Shown here: piece after piece, positions 1,820 to 16,605 of the stretch
Position numbering within the stretch: position 1 is the stretch's first letter
Layout of the letters: each line of letters starts with the position of its first letter
IMG/VR virus record: IMGVR_UViG_3300021409_000010
Location: 1 to 22,020 of that record
DNA length: 22,020 nucleotides
Strand: one strand, 5' to 3'
From: a virus
Position numbers and translations under genes: made by a program
The notes under the pieces: model-generated
Told to the model about the DNA's origin: nothing
Database searches by the model: none
The model's input: only the letters and a program-made list of their open reading frames with translations

Positions 1820-4738
1820 TCAATAAAATTCGGTTTGCTCATCGAATGAGTGGAACGCACTTAAACCTGCGGCGTCTCGAACCCGGCAAGTCACAACCGC
1901 CCGGGAGAAGCCTGGATTAACCGCAACACTGGCGGTCAACCCAATGGTGGCTGTTCCCTGCCCGGACGTAATACGCAAAGTTCCCTCAGTGGACGCGATG
2001 GTCCACTCATAGGAAAAGGGACCTGTTCCATACGTGACGACCGCAGTTTGTGGAGGAAGAACTTTTGATTTGCCCGTCGAAATTTCCGAGATGCCCGGAC
2101 CCGCATTGACTTGTGGCGGATTGTTGAGCTTGGACGCGGCACCTGCCCCAGCCACCGCGCCAGCCTCGACCGTTGTGGCGGGCGTGCTGCCTACGTTGGT
2201 TCCGGCTGGTGCGCCCCACGAAGCGTTCAGGTCGCCCGTGTACATTGCCCTGTCCAGGTCCCGGACCCATGCTCCCCATGAAGCGGCGCTAGCCCCAGCA
2301 CTGCGCTTCCAGATCGTGGAGGCGCTGACGTATGCCCACTGGATGGCCTCCCCGCCCGAGCTGTCCACCCAGCCTTTCATTGTCTCCAGCACGCAGTAGA
2401 GGCCCGCCGCGCCAACGCCAATGACGTCCTGCGCTTTGAATTCCTTAATGTGTCCGACGGGGTAGCCGCTAGGAGGGGTGTTGACAGCCCTCGTATCAGG
2501 GACCGCCAGATAGGTCGCCGTCGTCGCGGCCTTTGCGGCCATCGCATTCAACAGAGCCTGCTTCGCGGTGTAATAATCGGAGAATCGCGTGCGGAAAGTG
2601 GCGCCCACAATCACCGTATCGACGCCGATGCTGTTCCATTGGGTCCCTGGGAGGTATGCCTCAAGCGCCGAGTAGGCTGCGGCATAGGCGGCACTGCTGA
2701 CCCCGAGGCTCGATGCCTGGTTGAGTACGCCCGCCACCTCACCCACGATGGCGTCCCACTTCAGAATGACCTCAGGCTTCTCGCCCTTCGACAGAATGTT
2801 GTCGTTTGCGATGTCCGCTAGGACCGCGTTAGCCGCGTCGGCTGATGCTTGAGCAGCTGCCAGCTCAGCAATCGACACCGCCGGACCATACCTGCCGAGG
2901 CTGATCCAGTCGATCTCGAAGGTGTCCGCTGCGGAGCCACCGAGGTCTGGGCGGACATACTGGACAGTACGGCCCGTCCACTCAGCCACCTTGGACATGT
3001 TCCATTCCAGAATGACCCACTCATTTAAGATGGTTATATCGGGAATCCCAAGGGCCTGCCCGCTCCCGCCCTCAGTTGGGAATTGAGTTGTGGACCAGAA
3101 CAAGTTGCCGTCCCAGCTTGAACCTGCGGTGCCAGCCAGGCGCTTCACCTTCATGCGCAGGACATTGTAGAGGTTGCCCGGTAGCGCAAGGCCATACGGG
3201 GACCTGAAGATCGGGTCGGCTCCCCCGGAATCAATAATCATCGAGTCCGACGTGAAGCTCATCGACGTGATACCGCCAATATTCTGCCAGCCGTCGAGCG
3301 TTCCGCGGAAGTCCCACGTCTTGTACGAGGAGAATCCAGAACGGGCTGCTGCGCCGGCAATGGCGTTGAGCAGCGCCTGCTTCGCGGTGTAGTACGCGGT
3401 CCAGTTGGACCTGAAGTCCGTTCCCACGATGGCAGAGTCCGTCGTCAGGACGTTCCACCCGCCAGGGATGCCTCCCAGGTAGTTGGACAGCGCCGTGATC
3501 GTGGCCTCGTAGCCCGCGTTACTCACACCAAGGGCCAGCGCCTGGGCGCCGAGTGGCCCGCGCTCTGCCGTCACGGTGTCCCACTGCCTGATGACGTCTG
3601 ATTTTTCGCCCCGCGACAGTACGTTGTCGTCTGCAATCACGGCGACTGCGTCGCTTGCAGCTTTACCGGCTGCCGCATTCGCCACCAGCGTGGCCGCGGC
3701 GGTTCCGTTGATGGTGCCGGTGATATCGCCGCCAAACGCCACGCTGAGACTCGGACGGTACGGGTTCTCCGAGGCCAGGCCAGGCTTCACCATCGGTGAT
3801 TTGATAATGCCCGCCGCGTTCACGTCCTTGTCCACCGAACGGTAGGCCATCACGCCAAACGTCGTGTACAGGTCGGCCGCCGCGCCGAACAAGATGAACG
3901 CGCGCTTGCTGGCCGGGACTGTGTAGACCGTCTCCAGCGAGGGAGTCGAGCCGAAGGTGTAGGCGAACGAGGACGTGCTCTGGTACACGTAGACCAGGAA
4001 GCCGTCGATGTCGCCCTCGGCGCCCGCCCAGGCCCACTCGAAGGAGATGTCAGCGGCACCGTCCTTGCGAATCGTATGGTCGACCGCGCTGCCATCGGCC
4101 AGGATCGTTGGGATCGCCAGGGCGGTCGCATTGCGGTCGTTGCTGGCGTTGAAGTTCGTGACCGCCGCGGTGATATTCGCCACCGGCACGCCGTTCACCA
4201 GGGTGCCAGCCGGCGCACCGACCGTGGCGCCGTCCTCTGGCTTGCCAGCGCCGGAGATATTCGCCCAGACCGCCTTCGTCGCTGTCGCGGTCGTGATGGC
4301 GTTTCGGAGAGCCTGCCGCTTGGCGTAGACGTCGCCGAACTTGGCGCGCATGTCTGTGCCCGTGATGTTGATCGTGACGCCTGGGATCGTGTTCCACCCG
4401 GTGAGCGGCGCGCTGGCCAGGTAATTCGTCAGCGCGGTGATGGCGGCGGTGTAGGCCGTCTTTTCCGTGGTGACGCCAAGGGCCGTCGCAGAAGCTTCGA
4501 TGCCTACCTGCTCGGCAACGATCTCGTCACGCTTGGCGACGACATCAGGTTTTTTATCGGGGGTCAGCTTGTTGTCGCTGGCGATGTCGGCCAGCAGCAG
4601 GTTTGCAGCATCGGCGTCCGCCTGGGCGGCATCGGCCGCGTCCGCGGCATCCTGCACCAGGGCGGCCAGGCCATTCGGAATCACGCGCAACACGGCGCCC
4701 TGCAACAGCGTGTCGCAGTCGTTCAGTACTCCGCTCAT
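1820..4738 (-). CDS. Large modular tail tip / receptor-binding protein candidate (972 aa)
   Basis: The 972-residue protein starts at the ATG at 4736-4738, overlapping the previous stop (ATGA). It contains three copies of a helical module (about 31-155, 352-465 and 625-738) with the shared pattern LADIAxDNxLSxGEKPxVI, then ALGV, then FRxxFxxYYTAKQALLNAI. Between and after them lie different beta-rich segments. Residues about 225-330 look like a fibronectin III-type phage tip domain (ISFEWAWAGAEGDIDGFLVY, then FGVMAYRSVDKDV). Residues about 467-620 look like a carbohydrate-binding jelly roll (WDFRGTLDGWQNI, then FEIDWISLG). Residues about 745-830 resemble a pyocin-knob domain (TIWKRSAGASAASWGAWVRDL), and about 895-972 an Ig/PKD-like fold. 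No enzyme motif is seen. The mix points to a host-recognition component at the tail tip, partly comparable to lambda J, but the fold assignments are by eye. Confidence 0.75.
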   Translation of the reverse strand: MSGVLNDCDTLLQGAVLRVIPNGLAALVQDAADAADAAQADADAANLLLADIASDNKLTPDKKPDVVAKRDEIVAEQVGIEASATALGVTTEKTAYTAAITALTNYLASAPLTGWNTIPGVTINITGTDMRAKFGDVYAKRQALRNAITTATATKAVWANISGAGKPEDGATVGAPAGTLVNGVPVANITAAVTNFNASNDRNATALAIPTILADGSAVDHTIRKDGAADISFEWAWAGAEGDIDGFLVYVYQSTSSFAYTFGSTPSLETVYTVPASKRAFILFGAAADLYTTFGVMAYRSVDKDVNAAGIIKSPMVKPGLASENPYRPSLSVAFGGDITGTINGTAAATLVANAAAGKAASDAVAVIADDNVLSRGEKSDVIRQWDTVTAERGPLGAQALALGVSNAGYEATITALSNYLGGIPGGWNVLTTDSAIVGTDFRSNWTAYYTAKQALLNAIAGAAARSGFSSYKTWDFRGTLDGWQNIGGITSMSFTSDSMIIDSGGADPIFRSPYGLALPGNLYNVLRMKVKRLAGTAGSSWDGNLFWSTTQFPTEGGSGQALGIPDITILNEWVILEWNMSKVAEWTGRTVQYVRPDLGGSAADTFEIDWISLGRYGPAVSIAELAAAQASADAANAVLADIANDNILSKGEKPEVILKWDAIVGEVAGVLNQASSLGVSSAAYAAAYSALEAYLPGTQWNSIGVDTVIVGATFRTRFSDYYTAKQALLNAMAAKAATTATYLAVPDTRAVNTPPSGYPVGHIKEFKAQDVIGVGAAGLYCVLETMKGWVDSSGGEAIQWAYVSASTIWKRSAGASAASWGAWVRDLDRAMYTGDLNASWGAPAGTNVGSTPATTVEAGAVAGAGAASKLNNPPQVNAGPGISEISTGKSKVLPPQTAVVTYGTGPFSYEWTIASTEGTLRITSGQGTATIGLTASVAVNPGFSRAVVTCRVRDAAGLSAFHSFDEQTEFY
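2525..2866 (-). repeat. Helical tip module, copy C (residues 625-738)
   Basis: This is the third copy, containing ASADAANAVLADIANDNILS, KGEKPEVILKWDAIVGEVAG and FRTRFSDYYTAKQALLNAMA. It is closest to copy B. It separates the jelly-roll-like segment from the knob-like C-terminal part. Confidence 0.75.
3344..3685 (-). repeat. Helical tip module, copy B (residues 352-465)
   Basis: This is the second copy, containing VIADDNVLSRGEKSDVIRQW, ALGVSNAGYEATITALSNYL and FRSNWTAYYTAKQALLNAIA. At the DNA level it shares a 17-base identical stretch with copy C (3375-3391 versus 2556-2572) in the codons for the YTAKQAL segment, consistent with duplication or strong codon conservation. Confidence 0.75.
4274..4648 (-). 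repeat. Helical tip module, copy A (residues 31-155)
   Basis: This is the first of three protein-level repeats in the 972-residue tip protein. It begins with an alanine/aspartate-rich helix (AADAADAAQADADAANLLLA), continues with DIASDNKLTPDKKPDVVAKR and ends in FGDVYAKRQALRNAITTATA. It is the most diverged of the three copies. Boundaries are approximate. Confidence 0.7.
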
Positions 4739-6222
4739 ACGAGGAACCCTACTTTGACGCGCCCGGTGGTCCAGTCAGGCGCGAGTGAAATAACGATGCC
4801 GGCGGCGCCGGCGGACATGCCGAAGCGCGGGCTATAGACGGTGACTGCCTGGCCCAGCTCGAGCTGCAACAGCTCCGGCAGGCCGTCGAACTCGTAGGTG
4901 GTGCGCGGCACCTTCCACAAGTCGAGGCGGCGCTGGGCCTCAGCATCGGCCTCGGCCCGGGTCAGCAGCAGCGTGTCCTGCTGCACCGGCTCGGCGTTCA
5001 GCTTAAATTTCGCCAGGGTGGCCGCGTCCGACTTAGTAGTGGTGCGCCACTCGTTGGAGAACAGATCCTTGTGGCGATCGGGTATTCCCGCGAGCGTACC
5101 CGCCTCCTGGACAGTCCAGTTTTTGCAGAAGCCGAGCTTCACCGCGCCCACCGCAGCTGTGCGCCCGGTCGGCGAGAGCGTGCCGTCGACCATGTGCTCT
5201 GGCCGGATCACAAACGGCGTGCCGGTGCCGGGAAGCGCAAGCTGAACGATCCGCAGTTTCCCTAATCGCGACATCACCAGTTGCCCACCCAGGCTGCCCA
5301 CCAGCATTTGGCAGGCCGTCAGGACGTTCATGCGATCCGTCGCGTACAACCCCATACCTTGCGGGTGCGCAGCGTCGAATGCAGCGAAGCTGGCCAGGTC
5401 GATGTCGTCGTCGATGAAACGGTCGGTCACCTTGCCATAGCCCGTGACCAGGCGCTTCACCAGCTGCGCCGCGGTTTCGGCATAGACCGGCGACTTGTCG
5501 CCACGCAACGATGCAGTGACCGCGCCGGCCGGCTCTGCCGCAAGCGTGAACGTCCCGGTCGCCAGGTCAGCGGTGAATGCCACGGGCGCCCCATTGTCTC
5601 GGACCTCGATGATGCTGTCGATTGGACCAGCGTGAACCTGGTACTTCAAAGTAGCAGGCACGATCAGCAGCGGCGTGACATTGAACACCTGACCCAGCGC
5701 GATCGGCAGCAAGGCGTCTTGGTTCTCGCCAGCACCACCCATCTTGGCTTCGCTGATCGCCGTGTTCAGGCGCTGCAACTTATCACGCAGTTTTAGCCCG
5801 AATTTGTTGCGCCCGCGCGGTGCGATGTCGGCCGATATTCCATCAAAGATCCGGCTGATCGGCGGCAGGTCAGTGAGGGTCCAGCGGATGTCGCCGAGGC
5901 GAGCTTTCATCGAGCGATTCATAAAGACATAACCCGTGCCGGTCCATGCATCGCGCTCGCCGCCGGTGTTGTCGATCTCCAGCTCACCCGCCGATAGCGC
6001 GCCGTCACCCTCAAGCGACAGCTGCTCCGTAAATAGCGTGCCCACGGTGGCGATTGGCAGATACATCGTGTTTGCCGGCGTATCGGCGGCGCCGGAGGTG
6101 AATGGTTTCGTCGCCAAGTAGACGACGGACTCCACGCCACCGATTTGCACTGCGACCTCGATGAGGACGCAACGGTACGCGGCCTGGCTTTTCAGCCAGT
6201 CCAGATATTGAGCATCAGTCAT
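4735..6222 (-). CDS. Tail hub / tip protein candidate (495 aa)
   Basis: This 495-residue protein starts at the ATG at 6220-6222, overlapping the tape measure stop by four bases (ATGA), and ends overlapping the start of the 972-residue tip gene in the same way. The first 160 residues include QLSLEGDGALSAGELEIDNT, YVFMNRSMKARLGDIRWTLT and LKLRDKLQRLN, reading as a beta-rich baseplate-type domain. The C-terminal part (LPELLQLELGQAVTVYSPRF, then GIVISLAPDWTTGRVKVGFL) matches the style of the closing beta-barrel of phage tail hub and tip proteins, where a line on surface position is followed by 'DWxxGxVxvxL'. Location directly after the tape measure fits a distal tail or hub role. I recognise no named family with certainty; distal-tail (Dit)-like or a split part of a lambda J-type tip are the alternatives. 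Confidence 0.72.
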   Translation of the reverse strand: MTDAQYLDWLKSQAAYRCVLIEVAVQIGGVESVVYLATKPFTSGAADTPANTMYLPIATVGTLFTEQLSLEGDGALSAGELEIDNTGGERDAWTGTGYVFMNRSMKARLGDIRWTLTDLPPISRIFDGISADIAPRGRNKFGLKLRDKLQRLNTAISEAKMGGAGENQDALLPIALGQVFNVTPLLIVPATLKYQVHAGPIDSIIEVRDNGAPVAFTADLATGTFTLAAEPAGAVTASLRGDKSPVYAETAAQLVKRLVTGYGKVTDRFIDDDIDLASFAAFDAAHPQGMGLYATDRMNVLTACQMLVGSLGGQLVMSRLGKLRIVQLALPGTGTPFVIRPEHMVDGTLSPTGRTAAVGAVKLGFCKNWTVQEAGTLAGIPDRHKDLFSNEWRTTTKSDAATLAKFKLNAEPVQQDTLLLTRAEADAEAQRRLDLWKVPRTTYEFDGLPELLQLELGQAVTVYSPRFGMSAGAAGIVISLAPDWTTGRVKVGFLV

Positions 6223-14432: not shown

Positions 14433-14977
14433 CAGAGATACACCCGGTAACGATCCAACAACCGGCACAGGTATGGACTTTTCGGCGTGCCGGGTGCAGC
14501 GAAATGTTCTTGAACTTTTGCGAGAATGAAACCTTTGATCGCGTCGGGCACACTTGTTTCGTCGGGACCGTAGCCGGCCGTGTACTGGACTTCCACGGCG
14601 TTTATCCGCGCCGCTGTTGCTGGCCAAGCCCTGTCCGGCGCCGGAACGATATAGCCCGGCTCGCTGACGTTGTCTACTTGGTAGTCCTGCGGGTCGAGGG
14701 TTTCCAGCGTGCCGGAGGTCGATTCGAAGTGCACATGCGCGACCGACTGCAGTGGCGCATATGGCAGCCTGATGGCGGCTGAGAATCCGTCGAGCGTGAC
14801 GCGCCAGGTCTGCGTGATGAGCACGCGTTGCATTTCGTGTTCGGCCTCTTCCGTGTACATTCCGATCGCGAGGCGTAGCTCAGCGTCAGCCTGGTCGCCG
14901 TCGAGGCGCGCCGCTGCTCGAGCAGCCTCCAGCGACACAGCCAGCGCGGCGGGCGGGATGATAAGTCTTGCGGTCAT
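14432..14977 (-). CDS. Head-tail connector, gp6 / phiE125 gp8-like (181 aa)
   Basis: This 181-residue protein starts at the ATG at 14975-14977, overlapping the repeat-protein gene stop by four bases. It begins MTARLIIPPAALAVSLEAAR and continues with helical DADGDQADAELRLAIG-like content, ITQTWRVTLDGFSAAIRLPY, APLQSVAHVHF, VEVQYTAGYGPDETSVPDAI and KGFILAKVQEHF. The 'tWr..ldgf...i.LP..Pl.sV..v.Y' and 'v.ytaGyg....vP..ik..il' pattern is diagnostic of the phiE125 gp8/HK97 gp6 connector family. The protein forms a ring below the portal. In simple HK97-type phages this gene follows the capsid gene directly; here six genes intervene. Confidence 0.9.
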   Translation of the reverse strand: MTARLIIPPAALAVSLEAARAAARLDGDQADAELRLAIGMYTEEAEHEMQRVLITQTWRVTLDGFSAAIRLPYAPLQSVAHVHFESTSGTLETLDPQDYQVDNVSEPGYIVPAPDRAWPATAARINAVEVQYTAGYGPDETSVPDAIKGFILAKVQEHFAAPGTPKSPYLCRLLDRYRVYL

Positions 14978-16605
14978 CGGACATTCCTTTGAATTGCTAG
15001 CGGCCGGGAACCACCGACCTGAGCCGGGCGCACCTGGTATTCGTTGCGTTGCGGGGTGTAGCCGGATCCTGCTGGTGCCCGTGCGTATTCGATCGTTGAT
15101 CCGTAGGCAAGCACGGCCGGGTTGCCGGCCAGGTCGAACGCACCAGGTGCGAGCGACAGGCGCCGCGTCACACGCAGGACGGCGGCGCCGGATGCGACGA
15201 CGAACGCCCCCTGGCCGCCCGCCATGCGTCGCGAACAGCGGATCGTTGCAACGGCGCCAGCATGTCCAAAGCTGCCAGACCCGGCCTGCAGACGACGCAT
15301 GACGCGCATGCCCACAGCCGAACCGGTCAACAAGAACTGACCCGTCTCCGTGAAGAGAACGTTGCCCTCGACGACCGGCGAGTACACAAGCTGCGCCGCG
15401 CCACCGGAGAGCATGAAAGCACCGACGTTCGCAACCAGCCGACGCACTGCGGCAAGCCGCGCATCGGCACCGGTCAGCGCGAATGCAGCCGGCGCTGCGC
15501 TGACTCGACGCAATGCGCGAAGCGAACCGCCTGAACCTGAAATGGCAAAAGTTCCAGTCGATGTCGCCAGTGCGCGAGAAGCCCGAAGCGCTCCTGCGGC
15601 GCTGGCCAGCACGAATTCGCCCGGCGAACCGGCGAGCTTTCGCGAAACGATTAAGCCGGCCGCGCCGCCCGCTAGGGTAATGACACCGGTTGCGCCGACG
15701 ACGCGGCGCCCGGCCCGCAGCACTGCTTGGGTTCCGGTCAGCGAGAATGAGCCGTTGCCGCCAACCAGCGTGCGAATAACCCGCAGCGATGCGGACGCAC
15801 CCGATAATCCGAAGGCACCAGGCGCCGCCGTCAGGGTGTAGCTGTTCGGGGCAGTCGCAGCGCCGACGGTAAGTTCGTCTTCGTCGGTCGGGTCATCAAA
15901 CAGCTGCCATGGATTTACCTGGAGCGCTCCGACCTCGGGCGCGCTGACTGCCCGCGAGAACGTTGCAGCAAGCACGTGTATTGCCGCACCATGGGGCGAT
16001 GCAGTAACGCTGGAGCCGTGGTAGCCGAGAGATACGCCTCGCGTCGAAACCCGCAGATTGCCATTACCACCACTTGCGCTCGCGCTCTTTCCTTTGCAGT
16101 AGACCGTCACCGTGTTACCGCGTTTAGTGCCAATAAGGAGCACTAACTCGCCAGCGCCAATACCTGCCCCAGAAGTCGTCGCGGTGAATGCCGCCGGTGA
16201 TGTGTCGACGTAGGAGAACCGAGCCTCGCCTGCCGACGTGATGCTCAGTCGCAGGCTGGAGCCTGCACCCATGCTGTCATCGCCGCGGCACATTACGCCG
16301 CCGTACTGCAAGTCGGCGAGAGAGCCCATCCATACGAAAGTCGCGTCAGTCCCCGGGACTAGGGCGGTTGTGCCTGCCTCGAGGGTCGCGGTCAGAAACG
16401 AATCAGCCGCACTCATGCTGTTGTTCATCAGGCCGATGCCGATGCGGGTCGCGCGGAAGGGGCTCCCTGTGATGGTATTAAACGTCGGCCTTCGGCTTGC
16501 TACAGCGTCAACGCACCCAAGTGATGTGAAGTTGAACAGGCCAGTCAGTCCCGGCCACCCCTTCGCCGGGCGCATCAAACCTTGCGGTTGGTAGCGCATC
16601 GCCAT
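14974..16605 (-). CDS. LamG-like domain protein with eleven 22-residue repeats (543 aa)
   Basis: This 543-residue protein starts at the ATG at 16603-16605 (MAMRYQPQG; the ATG two codons on is equally possible), one base after the previous stop. Residues about 40-245 look like a concanavalin-type LamG sandwich (ATFVWMGSLADLQYGGVMCR, VLLIGTKRGNTVTVYCKGKS, then GALQVNPWQLFDDP, an ending often seen in phage LamG proteins). Residues 258-502 are eleven tandem 22-residue units of the type LxAxxGxFxLxGxxAxLRxx followed by RR or a similar basic pair. The C-terminus (PQRNEYQVRPAQ, SRPLAIQRNVR) is basic. LamG domains bind sugars or proteins, so a surface-exposed head or neck decoration, or adhesin, is plausible. 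The function of the repeat arm is unknown. It lies last in the accessory cassette, coupled to the connector gene. Confidence 0.8.
   Translation of the reverse strand: MAMRYQPQGLMRPAKGWPGLTGLFNFTSLGCVDAVASRRPTFNTITGSPFRATRIGIGLMNNSMSAADSFLTATLEAGTTALVPGTDATFVWMGSLADLQYGGVMCRGDDSMGAGSSLRLSITSAGEARFSYVDTSPAAFTATTSGAGIGAGELVLLIGTKRGNTVTVYCKGKSASASGGNGNLRVSTRGVSLGYHGSSVTASPHGAAIHVLAATFSRAVSAPEVGALQVNPWQLFDDPTDEDELTVGAATAPNSYTLTAAPGAFGLSGASASLRVIRTLVGGNGSFSLTGTQAVLRAGRRVVGATGVITLAGGAAGLIVSRKLAGSPGEFVLASAAGALRASRALATSTGTFAISGSGGSLRALRRVSAAPAAFALTGADARLAAVRRLVANVGAFMLSGGAAQLVYSPVVEGNVLFTETGQFLLTGSAVGMRVMRRLQAGSGSFGHAGAVATIRCSRRMAGGQGAFVVASGAAVLRVTRRLSLAPGAFDLAGNPAVLAYGSTIEYARAPAGSGYTPQRNEYQVRPAQVGGSRPLAIQRNVR
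15100..15834 (-). repeat. Eleven tandem 66-base (22-residue) protein repeats
   Basis: Residues 258-502 divide into eleven units: starting at LTAAPGAFGLSG, LVGGNGSFSLTG, VVGATGVITLAG, LAGSPGEFVLAS, LATSTGTFAISG, VSAAPAAFALTG, LVANVGAFMLSG, LFTETGQFLLTG, LQAGSGSFGHAG, MAGGQGAFVVAS and LSLAPGAFDLAG. Most are followed by xxAxLRxxRR. Only the seventh to eighth junction differs, with YSPVVEGNV replacing the basic pair. DNA copies are diverged, so the period is conserved by protein structure rather than recent copying. Confidence 0.88.

Follow-up and report, generated by a model that had tools for sequence, protein, structure and literature searches.

The tail-tip protein encoded in the window (the entire 22,020-nucleotide stretch of viral DNA analysed here, IMG/VR record IMGVR_UViG_3300021409_000010) carries three copies of one helical module with differing domains between them, and in its relatives we found seams at the module edges, chimeric modules and differences in copy number. 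The reading that we prefer, with a probability of roughly 60%, is that the module is a portable spacer domain of ancient origin, with edges and a conserved motif that form one of several exchange joints.

The tip gene and its three module copies

The tip gene (1820..4738; 972 residues; this and all following features are on the minus strand) is an open reading frame with a 4-base overlap with the upstream gene (4735..6222; 495 residues, phrog_8917), which served as the syntenic anchor for the comparison of tip genes. The gene order is tape measure (TMP_3), 495-residue gene and tip gene, and the PHROG matches of the tip protein include tail and adsorption families. The locus shows the pattern of a modular tail fibre or tip adhesin, with variable beta domains on a conserved anchor beside tape-measure and hub-type genes. 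Following an N-terminal anchor (residues 1-36, 4631..4738), the first 22 residues of which are 74% identical in the related locus L034, the HMM delimits module A at residues 37-156 (4271..4630), module B at residues 353-466 (3341..3682; also from the model) and module C at residues 628-741 (2516..2857; also from AF2). The initial annotation had recognized the three copies at residues 31-155, 352-465 and 625-738, only a few residues from these bounds.

The modules, of approximately 113 residues, are 40-49% identical (blastp: A/B 42.9% over 105 residues, A/C 40.4% over 99 and B/C 49.5% over 95), with E values from 1e-18 to 3e-22. The three pairwise Smith-Waterman scores were 177, 241 and 248 (Z of 24.5, 34.7 and 34.7 from 500 shuffles each), while comparisons with 75 segments of the tape-measure protein gave 46 at most; the likeness of the copies is well beyond chance. 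The consensus strings originally quoted for the module fit best in B and C, but copy A deviates from them (LTPDKK, VYAKRQALRNAI).

The 17-base identity noticed earlier between module B (3375..3391) and module C (2556..2572) is exact. Because the two copies share a common peptide and codon usage, such a match is fairly often expected: 23 of 300 codon-recoded controls gave a B/C match of 17 bases or more, and we rejected the identity as a trace of recombination. Nucleotide identity among the three copies is 55-59%. At identical residues, B and C agree in codon at 25 of 55 positions, against 25.3 expected from codon usage; the agreement of A with B (29/49, 22.1 expected) and with C (34/59, 26.9 expected) is slightly above expectation. 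In a tree of 50 hand-chosen modules, an origin of copies A, B and C from one clade was rejected by the AU test (p=0.017), and copy A grouped with modules of L034 and L007 (support 100/97), its nearest relatives at 68% and 65% identity, respectively. The AU test and a B/C codon agreement no greater than codon usage alone would give both disfavour a recent duplication within the gene or gene conversion there, and neither codon agreement nor the tree gave a clear sign of recent exchange among the window's own copies, which look old judging from their sequences.

These data also bear on the possibility of a tandem duplication within the gene that produced all three copies, the beta domains being inserted later. 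Closely spaced modules are common in the family (35 of 64 neighbouring pairs have a spacer of 62 residues or less), two copies within one protein are 83-87% identical in L013, L065 and L084, and the slight codon excess of copy A would fit such an origin. The AU result and the well-supported placement of copy A with L034 and L007 among the chosen modules argue against it, and we consider this history highly unlikely.

Domains between the modules and fold of the module

As the initial annotation had claimed, the parts between the copies differ. A KPEDGATVGAPAGT linker and an FN3-like domain separate A from B (residues 157-352, 3683..4270); its Pfam stretch (residues 195-314, 3797-4156) matches DUF7359 (PF24058) with 150.6 bits, against a threshold of 27.5 bits (E 2e-44). 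This domain is shared with YomG of Bacillus SPbeta, at 44% identity and over residues 193-333 only. Between B and C lies a carbohydrate-binding-type jelly roll (residues 467-627, 2858..3340), identified by a profile match to the R4C megatron (8gtc_M 486-628, E 1.3e-27) and by an AF2 model of the folded B-jelly roll-C piece, which VIA aligned with 8gtc_M at a Z of 15.4 (rmsd 2.6 over 146 aligned residues); the full-length alignment was not used for structure prediction, since it aligned jelly rolls onto the DUF7359 region. The domain is homologous to the carbohydrate-binding domain of the R4C megatron (8gtc_M 482-629), which is described in the available text as an extra domain relative to RcGTA (PMC10276861). 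In R4C the domain lies within the megatron peripheral domain, while the sequence match to the window is confined to the jelly roll. Binding of a host receptor by the tip protein is accordingly putative, as suggested by the fold type.

Module C is followed by a knob-like domain with a trailing GDLNASWGAPAGT linker (residues 742-850, 2189..2515), which recurs in L017, L020, L007 and L067 at 49-59% identity and in L094 at 38%; sequence searches of Pfam and the PDB gave nothing for it at E 1. The earlier labels FN3-like, jelly roll and knob-like were borne out, but that of a C-terminal Ig/PKD domain (residues 873-972, 1823..2122) rests on a weak Pfam match (PKD_6, E 0.13), and blastp gave no relative of this domain at E 0.001 among the tip loci compared.

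The module was found in 101 distinct proteins including that of the window, in one (58 proteins), two (24), three (17) or four (2) copies. Over 149 distinct modules, K26 is invariant (149/149), and D18 and E25 are conserved at 96% and 95%. The closest module is a copy in the same protein for just 27 of 101 modules of multi-copy proteins. The AF2 model of module C (mean pLDDT 91.9) predicts four helices: a long helix, a motif loop and then three helices, the last of them long. Solved relatives were not recovered by sequence, where the best matches (E 0.11 and 0.12) were to unrelated proteins, and a Foldseek search of the PDB gave no clear match (best E 0.79); the VIA hits to DnaK lid and FAT bundles (Z 7.7 or less) score so low that they may reflect no more than a common way of packing helices. 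An NCBIfam scan with the whole tip protein and with module C only found no match at E 1. A description of the module was not found in the open-access literature searched, and the available portions of papers on phage LSH1 (PMC13243795), Basilisk-like phages (PMC6145125) and iF6 (PMC10054541) offered nothing decisive.

Two functional alternatives to a spacer were weighed against this family. In the first, the module would be GA-like and have a host protein as its ligand. Of 116 modules, 26 match Pfam GA_3 (PF22775) with E values no higher than 0.01, the lowest being 3.7e-6; however, the 8 matches among 15 modules scanned singly reach 15-22 bits, below the curated cut-off of 27, and extend over roughly the N-terminal half to two thirds of the module, with none in module C of the window. 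With such a weak profile likeness, this function appears very improbable. In the second, the D-x-A/S-x-D-N-x-L-S/T-x-x-E spacing would mark an EF-hand-like, calcium-binding metal switch or clamp. EF-hand and dockerin loops carry D or N at positions 1, 3 and 5 and E or D at position 12. D18, L21 and E25, at 91-96%, would occupy loop positions 5, 8 and 12; however, loop position 3 holds A (65%) or S (22%), position 1 is D in just 47%, and K26 is invariant. We rejected an EF hand on position 3, and a metal switch seems the most remote of the readings considered. T/S22 together with E25 fits a helix capping box, which the loop motif D-N/S-x-L-S/T-x-x-E-K resembles.

Seams and chimeras in related tip genes

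Related phages differ by gain, loss or replacement of the intervening domains at the module borders. The initial annotation would have had to be abandoned if related proteins held identical domain content without swaps; instead, the same upstream gene is directly adjoined by 17 distinct tip ORFs that range from 273 to 1605 residues and carry 0-2 modules each. Several seams coincide with module edges. The DNA homology of L034 with the window spans the upstream gene and ends at residue 149, at the end of module A, and that between L020 and L028 (66% nucleotide identity) ends at residue 762 in both, again at a module end. In L085, L099 and L107, modules at corresponding positions share 84-97% identity; the domains between them are 89% and 71% identical between L085 and L107, but in the other pairings they match only in brief C-terminal segments or, across the domain, at 24-31%. 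The proposed exchange at module boundaries stands for these cases, but in L150, L017 and L026 the module was swapped together with its neighbours as part of the cassette (45-51% protein identity in the module versus 72-81% DNA identity in the flanks). In the 32 protein pairs whose homology covers the upstream part and enters a module, it ends 0-32 residues beyond the module end in 16 and 41-83 residues before it in 8, and continues for 50 residues or more in the remaining 8.

Breaks also occur inside the module. In L029/L032, residues 1-26 of the module are 94% identical at the nucleotide level and the remainder 50%, the largest drop among 11,935 module pairs, while the contigs are 90-97% identical upstream and 87% downstream of it; the module is a clear chimera. 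Global chimerism is weakly indicated: over 131 modules, congruence between the two halves had an r of 0.627, whereas random halves gave 0.696 (sd 0.026), with 2 of 200 being as low, and alternating blocks 0.657, and no pair passed the chimera thresholds. The L029 chimera was missed because the cut was placed mid-module, and it did not emerge until the cut was moved to residue 26. Blocks in L067/L083, L007/L032 and L016/L212 end at about residues 27 to 32, but these pairs were rejected as chimeras, as they show no sharp drop by segment. The matches listed for 364 gene pairs contain 746 internal breakpoints, which fell at the N edge in 19.6% of cases (4.2% if uniform), at the C edge in 23.6% (3.7%) and inside the module in 26.6% (13.7%); these statistics are not proof, because many blocks are module-only, the pairs are dependent and blast ends can overrun the conserved motif. 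Besides the module, another element recurs at borders, GxGKPxDxAT / GAPxGTxV.

The same module family occurs in the central tail fibre of Enterococcus phages of Schiekvirus (Porthos PORT_106, iF6_103). Seven fibres of cultured Enterococcus phages carry 6, 6, 5, 4, 4, 4 and 4 modules, with GGRNL-type domains between and after them (the label jelly roll was given by eye, CBM_4_9 being below cut-off), and neighbouring copies are more alike than those of the window and visibly recombined. Four of the seven can be read as fusions of neighbouring modules, as judged from informative sites on each side of the best crossover with the Porthos copies as reference. Module 5 of 21C1 follows copy 5 at 27/33 sites to the left and copy 6 at 86/88 to the right, and module 4 of EA1 follows copy 4 at 27/29 and copy 6 at 65/93; the corresponding values are 23/23 and 68/99 in iF6 and 62/88 and 31/34 in EFDG1. 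None of 1000 permutations matched the scores of these fusions. The crossover interval of 21C1 shifts with the reference (residues 35-41 against Porthos, 26-28 against EFP01), and the position of crossovers in identical runs shows no preference, since such intervals by definition lack informative sites. Recombination of the repeats with each other is seen in the Enterococcus relatives, while none was seen between the window's own copies, and the view of a helical linker enabling domain exchange is supported in part, by the relatives.

These observations allow a competing explanation, in which the module is a mere well-folded linker bead without a special part in recombination: exchange would be illegitimate or proceed via flanking homology, and selection would preserve joins that keep the frame, whichever domain border they fall on. 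The cassette swaps in which the module moved too, the weak global incongruence of module halves, the second border element and the B/C codon agreement in the window, just as codon usage predicts, all agree with it, as does the occurrence of the intervening domains elsewhere: of 53 DUF7359 domains found, 47 had no module within 70 residues, and the same was true of 55 of 63 jelly rolls. The crossovers inside the module in L029/L032 and the four Enterococcus fibres, and the conserved modules around replaced domains in L085/L099/L107, speak against it, and we give this explanation a lesser but appreciable chance. The cassette swaps and the module-free domain copies led us to reject the module as the only exchange point.

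Exchange of binding domains at a portable spacer

Under the preferred reading of an ancient spacer domain that is one of several exchange joints, the tip protein would be a modular adhesin built as beads on a rod. Its interchangeable beta domains, which may contact the host surface, would be kept apart by an old and portable module of four helices and about 113 residues. In-frame exchanges at the module edges would be tolerated owing to the helical ends and the standardised place of the module in the chain. A crossover between module copies, within one gene or between two phages, would swap or remove the intervening part, and the N-terminal helix and motif, as the most conserved stretch, may sometimes supply the homology. 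The module may act as a rigid spacer in a trimer and the beta domains as host binders, and the same process may have built the window's own gene.

Domains parted by a repeated spacer are likewise known from antireceptors of Streptococcus thermophilus phages, with collagen-like repeats (PMC5601072), and from E. coli prophage fibres, with collagen or coiled-coil spacers, where the domain combinations were attributed to recombination (PMC3368898, both as far as their accessible text goes). Those spacers are fibrous, whereas that of the window is a predicted folded helical domain of 113 residues, and collagen-like Gly-X-Y repeats are absent from the module sequences. A survey of mosaicism in phage receptor-binding proteins reported common fragments in otherwise unrelated tail fibres, with 50% identity or more as the criterion for ongoing exchange; in its available text it is agnostic on the genetic process and notes that tail fibres rarely match more than one ECOD domain (PMC10684548). 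In contrast, one unnamed helical module is here a recurrent seam with internal crossovers. For Porthos, a mutation in PORT_106 is reported from one evolved host-range mutant (PMC11210271).

The mosaicism of tail fibres is well known, while the seams themselves are rarely seen. Here, an unnamed domain family often lies at the seams, and natural chimeras, some of them in culturable phages, roughly mark the places of crossover, so that the in-frame swapping of binding domains by phages becomes directly testable. In addition, one HMM marks domain borders in long, poorly annotated tail proteins. A bolder reading, which we regard as doubtful, sees in the module a dedicated joint for exchange, spread across phages or prophages of Bacillota, Bacteroidota and Pseudomonadota, its conserved stretch being kept for in-frame recombination besides folding; if true, a common currency of seams would link the otherwise separate adhesin repertoires of unrelated phages. 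Taken together, our analyses hint at how phages may alter the part that contacts the host.

The helical module of the tail-tip protein

The structural genes run along the minus strand of the window (a 22,020-base virus record), in which the tape measure gene (TMP_3) is followed by a gene of 495 amino acids (phrog_8917) and then by the 972-aa ORF 1820-4738. The spot after the tape measure and its following gene is the usual location of the tail-tip protein, and the ORF product has seven PHROG matches, three of which are tail families and one an adsorption family. On the same strand, several diverged GxFxLxGxxAxLxxxRRL repeats were seen by eye in a 543-aa protein (14974-16605), and no DNA-level tandem array was detected in its gene.

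The initial annotation had proposed a modular fibre in which a helical linker, used three times, permits domain exchange by recombination between the repeats. The three copies were borne out: modules A, B and C (minus strand; residues 37-156, 353-466 and 628-741 by HMM bounds) are 40-49% identical pairwise and align with scores of 177-248, versus at most 66 for shuffled sequences (500 per pair) and at most 46 for a tape-measure control (75 windows). The 17-base identity between B and C is exact, but a shared peptide combined with the phage's codon usage produces such a match fairly often (23 of 300 codon recodings give it). Codon agreement between B and C equals the codon-usage expectation, and that of A/B and A/C is slightly higher. 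In a tree of 50 hand-chosen modules, whose bootstrap had not settled, a single clade for the three window copies was rejected (AU p=0.017).

Across 113 fetched loci and the window, the module profile detected 178 copies, spread over 111 ORFs that encode 101 distinct proteins, of which 58 have a single copy, 24 have two, 17 have three and 2 have four. This count is no measure of prevalence because the loci were retrieved by whole-protein or module query. K26 is present in every one of 149 distinct modules, and D18, L21, T/S22, E25, E39, A47, Y59, L66 and Y69 are each conserved in at least 90% of them. In the AlphaFold2 model (116 rows; mean pLDDT 91.9), residues 15-36, 46-69, 75-87 and 104-137 (model numbering) form long helices. 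Neither sequence search nor Foldseek (best E 0.79) found a solved relative, an NCBIfam scan with the whole tip protein and module C gave no match, and Pfam GA_3 matched weakly. A viral model library yielded 18 matches at E <=0.001, the named ones being mostly tail or receptor-binding proteins of Acinetobacter, Enterococcus, Bacillus and Lactobacillus phages. Module-bearing genome contigs were those of Rhodanobacter glycinis, a Dysgonomonas MAG and a Bacteroidales MAG.

Domains between the modules and their exchange in relatives

The domain between A and B is DUF7359 (E 2e-44), also present in SPbeta YomG (44% identity); the segment at 3797-4156 (minus strand) has 39-44% identity to YomG-type proteins from SPbeta-like phages of Bacillus, a wide phylogenetic distance for a tail domain to span. 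The domain between B and C, modelled as a beta sandwich (mean pLDDT 84), is a jelly roll that matches the R4C megatron's carbohydrate-binding domain as a homologue in both sequence (E 1.3e-27) and structure (Z 15.4); the R4C authors regard that domain as extra relative to RcGTA (PMC10276861). The complete series of module, jelly roll and module recurs in one fetched locus (L155), and the module also precedes the knob, which follows module C, in L007, L017 and L020. Spacings between neighbouring modules fall into two classes, 35 of 64 at <=62 aa and 29 of 64 at 98-277 aa, the latter corresponding to about one domain. The domains also occur with no module within 70 aa (47 of 53 copies of DUF7359, 55 of 63 of the jelly roll and 7 of 14 of the knob). 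A second recurrent border element, GxGKPxDxATVGAPAGTxV, lies between domains in the window (residues 158-180 and 836-850) and its relatives, within 60 aa after 15 of 185 modules.

Sequence comparisons indicate that domains were exchanged at modules in several lineages; the window's own copies, judged by codons and tree, give no clear indication of recent mutual exchange. The tip ORFs adjoining homologues of the 495-aa upstream gene come in 17 distinct forms, which measure 273-1605 aa when counted from their first start codon and carry between 0 and 2 modules; in L014 and L022 the module-bearing ORF is non-adjacent to that homologue. L034 and the window share the 495-aa gene and tip residues 1-149, ending with module A (75-85% DNA identity across matching blocks upstream), and DNA homology then resumes only in downstream genes. 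In L007, an A-like module (65%) is followed by the knob that follows C in the window, and L020 and L028 are homologous in DNA (66%) as far as the final module residue and divergent beyond. At matching positions, the three modules of the large relatives L085, L099 and L107 have 84-97% identity. L085 and L107 share their first intervening domain at 89% identity, its match to L099 being limited to the last 32-36 residues; the second is 71% identical between L085 and L107 versus 25-29% in comparisons with L099.

The contigs L029 and L032 share 90-97% identity upstream and 87% downstream; within their module, residues 1-26 are 94% identical and the remainder 50%, the largest such drop among 11,935 module pairs, and the next part also differs. 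Since the loci are mostly metagenome contigs, individual assembly chimeras are possible; the L029/L032 exchange has an open frame and homology on either side. Of 32 upstream-homologous protein pairs reaching the module, 16 end 0-32 aa beyond its end, 8 end 41-83 aa before it and 8 continue for at least 50 aa, and 8 of 10 downstream-homologous pairs begin 3-37 aa ahead of the module, the other 2 within it. Between module 3 of L093 and module 2 of L103/L104, residues 3-38 have 78% DNA identity, the rest ~50-55% and the region after 71-80%, which could reflect a small exchange or strong motif conservation.

L150, L017 and L026 form a counter-case, with seams outside the module: their DNA is 72-81% identical over the first ~670 residues and again over the C-terminal part, with no DNA match in the pre-module domain, the module (45-51% protein identity) or the following part. 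The post-module domain of L150 (8838-9440) matches Pfam ILEI (interleukin-like EMT inducer) above the cut-off (E 4e-10), in the position of the knob in L017. In multi-copy proteins, a copy in the same protein was the nearest module for 27 of 101 modules, excluding >90% identical copies in other proteins, and when 131 modules were split in half, congruence fell only a little below that of random halves.

Fused modules in Enterococcus phage fibres

Seven fibres from deposited phage genomes (six Schiekvirus and the unclassified EA1, chosen by hand from the records found) are 87-97% identical in DNA across their common first ~1600 residues and carry six modules in Porthos and EFP01, five in 21C1 and four in EFDG1, iF6, EA1 and EfV12, differences that may reflect loss or gain. 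Windowed identity and informative sites revealed fused modules in four shorter fibres. Compared with Porthos, the left part of 21C1 module 5 matches copy 5 (27/33 sites) and its right part copy 6 (86/88), with the best-fitting crossover at aa 35-41, and EA1 module 4 passes from copy 4 (27/29) to copy 6 (65/93) at aa 16-26; the fused modules of iF6 (23/23 left, 68/99 right) and EFDG1 (62/88 left, 31/34 right) cross at aa 5-7 and 99. Against EFP01, the best-fitting positions are aa 26-28 (21C1), 23-24 (EA1), 1-2 (iF6) and 99 (EFDG1), and permuted sites matched the crossover score in 0 of 1000 cases in all eight tests. EfV12, whose left flank is unlike the other fibres, was compared by windows only.

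In EA1 and iF6, a differing GGRNL-type domain lies behind the last module, and farther on the gene is 96-99% identical to Porthos. By eye, EA1 apparently has two domains here (residues 1600-1959, ~360 aa), versus one of ~180 aa in Porthos. The type is not simply tied to host, being the same in EFDG1 (E. faecalis) and EFP01 (E. faecium), with hosts as given in their records. In a published study, one Porthos mutant with extended host range is mutated in the fibre gene PORT_106, although the authors hold point mutations, not recombination, responsible for the Porthos-derived phages (PMC11210271).

A proposed modular adhesin with seams

Domain mosaicism in fibres (PMC10684548) and other types of repeated spacer (PMC5601072; PMC3368898) have already been described, and the available portions of these three reports do not name the present module. 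On the best-supported reading, the protein is a modular adhesin, for which we infer spacer geometry, trimer state and binding, with the module edges and the conserved N-terminal part as seams. The helical spacer would hold the adhesin domains in line, and the module borders, together with the conserved N-terminal part, would act as the sites of exchange, where sufficiently similar copies may undergo homologous crossover and less similar ones may yield in-frame joins that are retained by selection.
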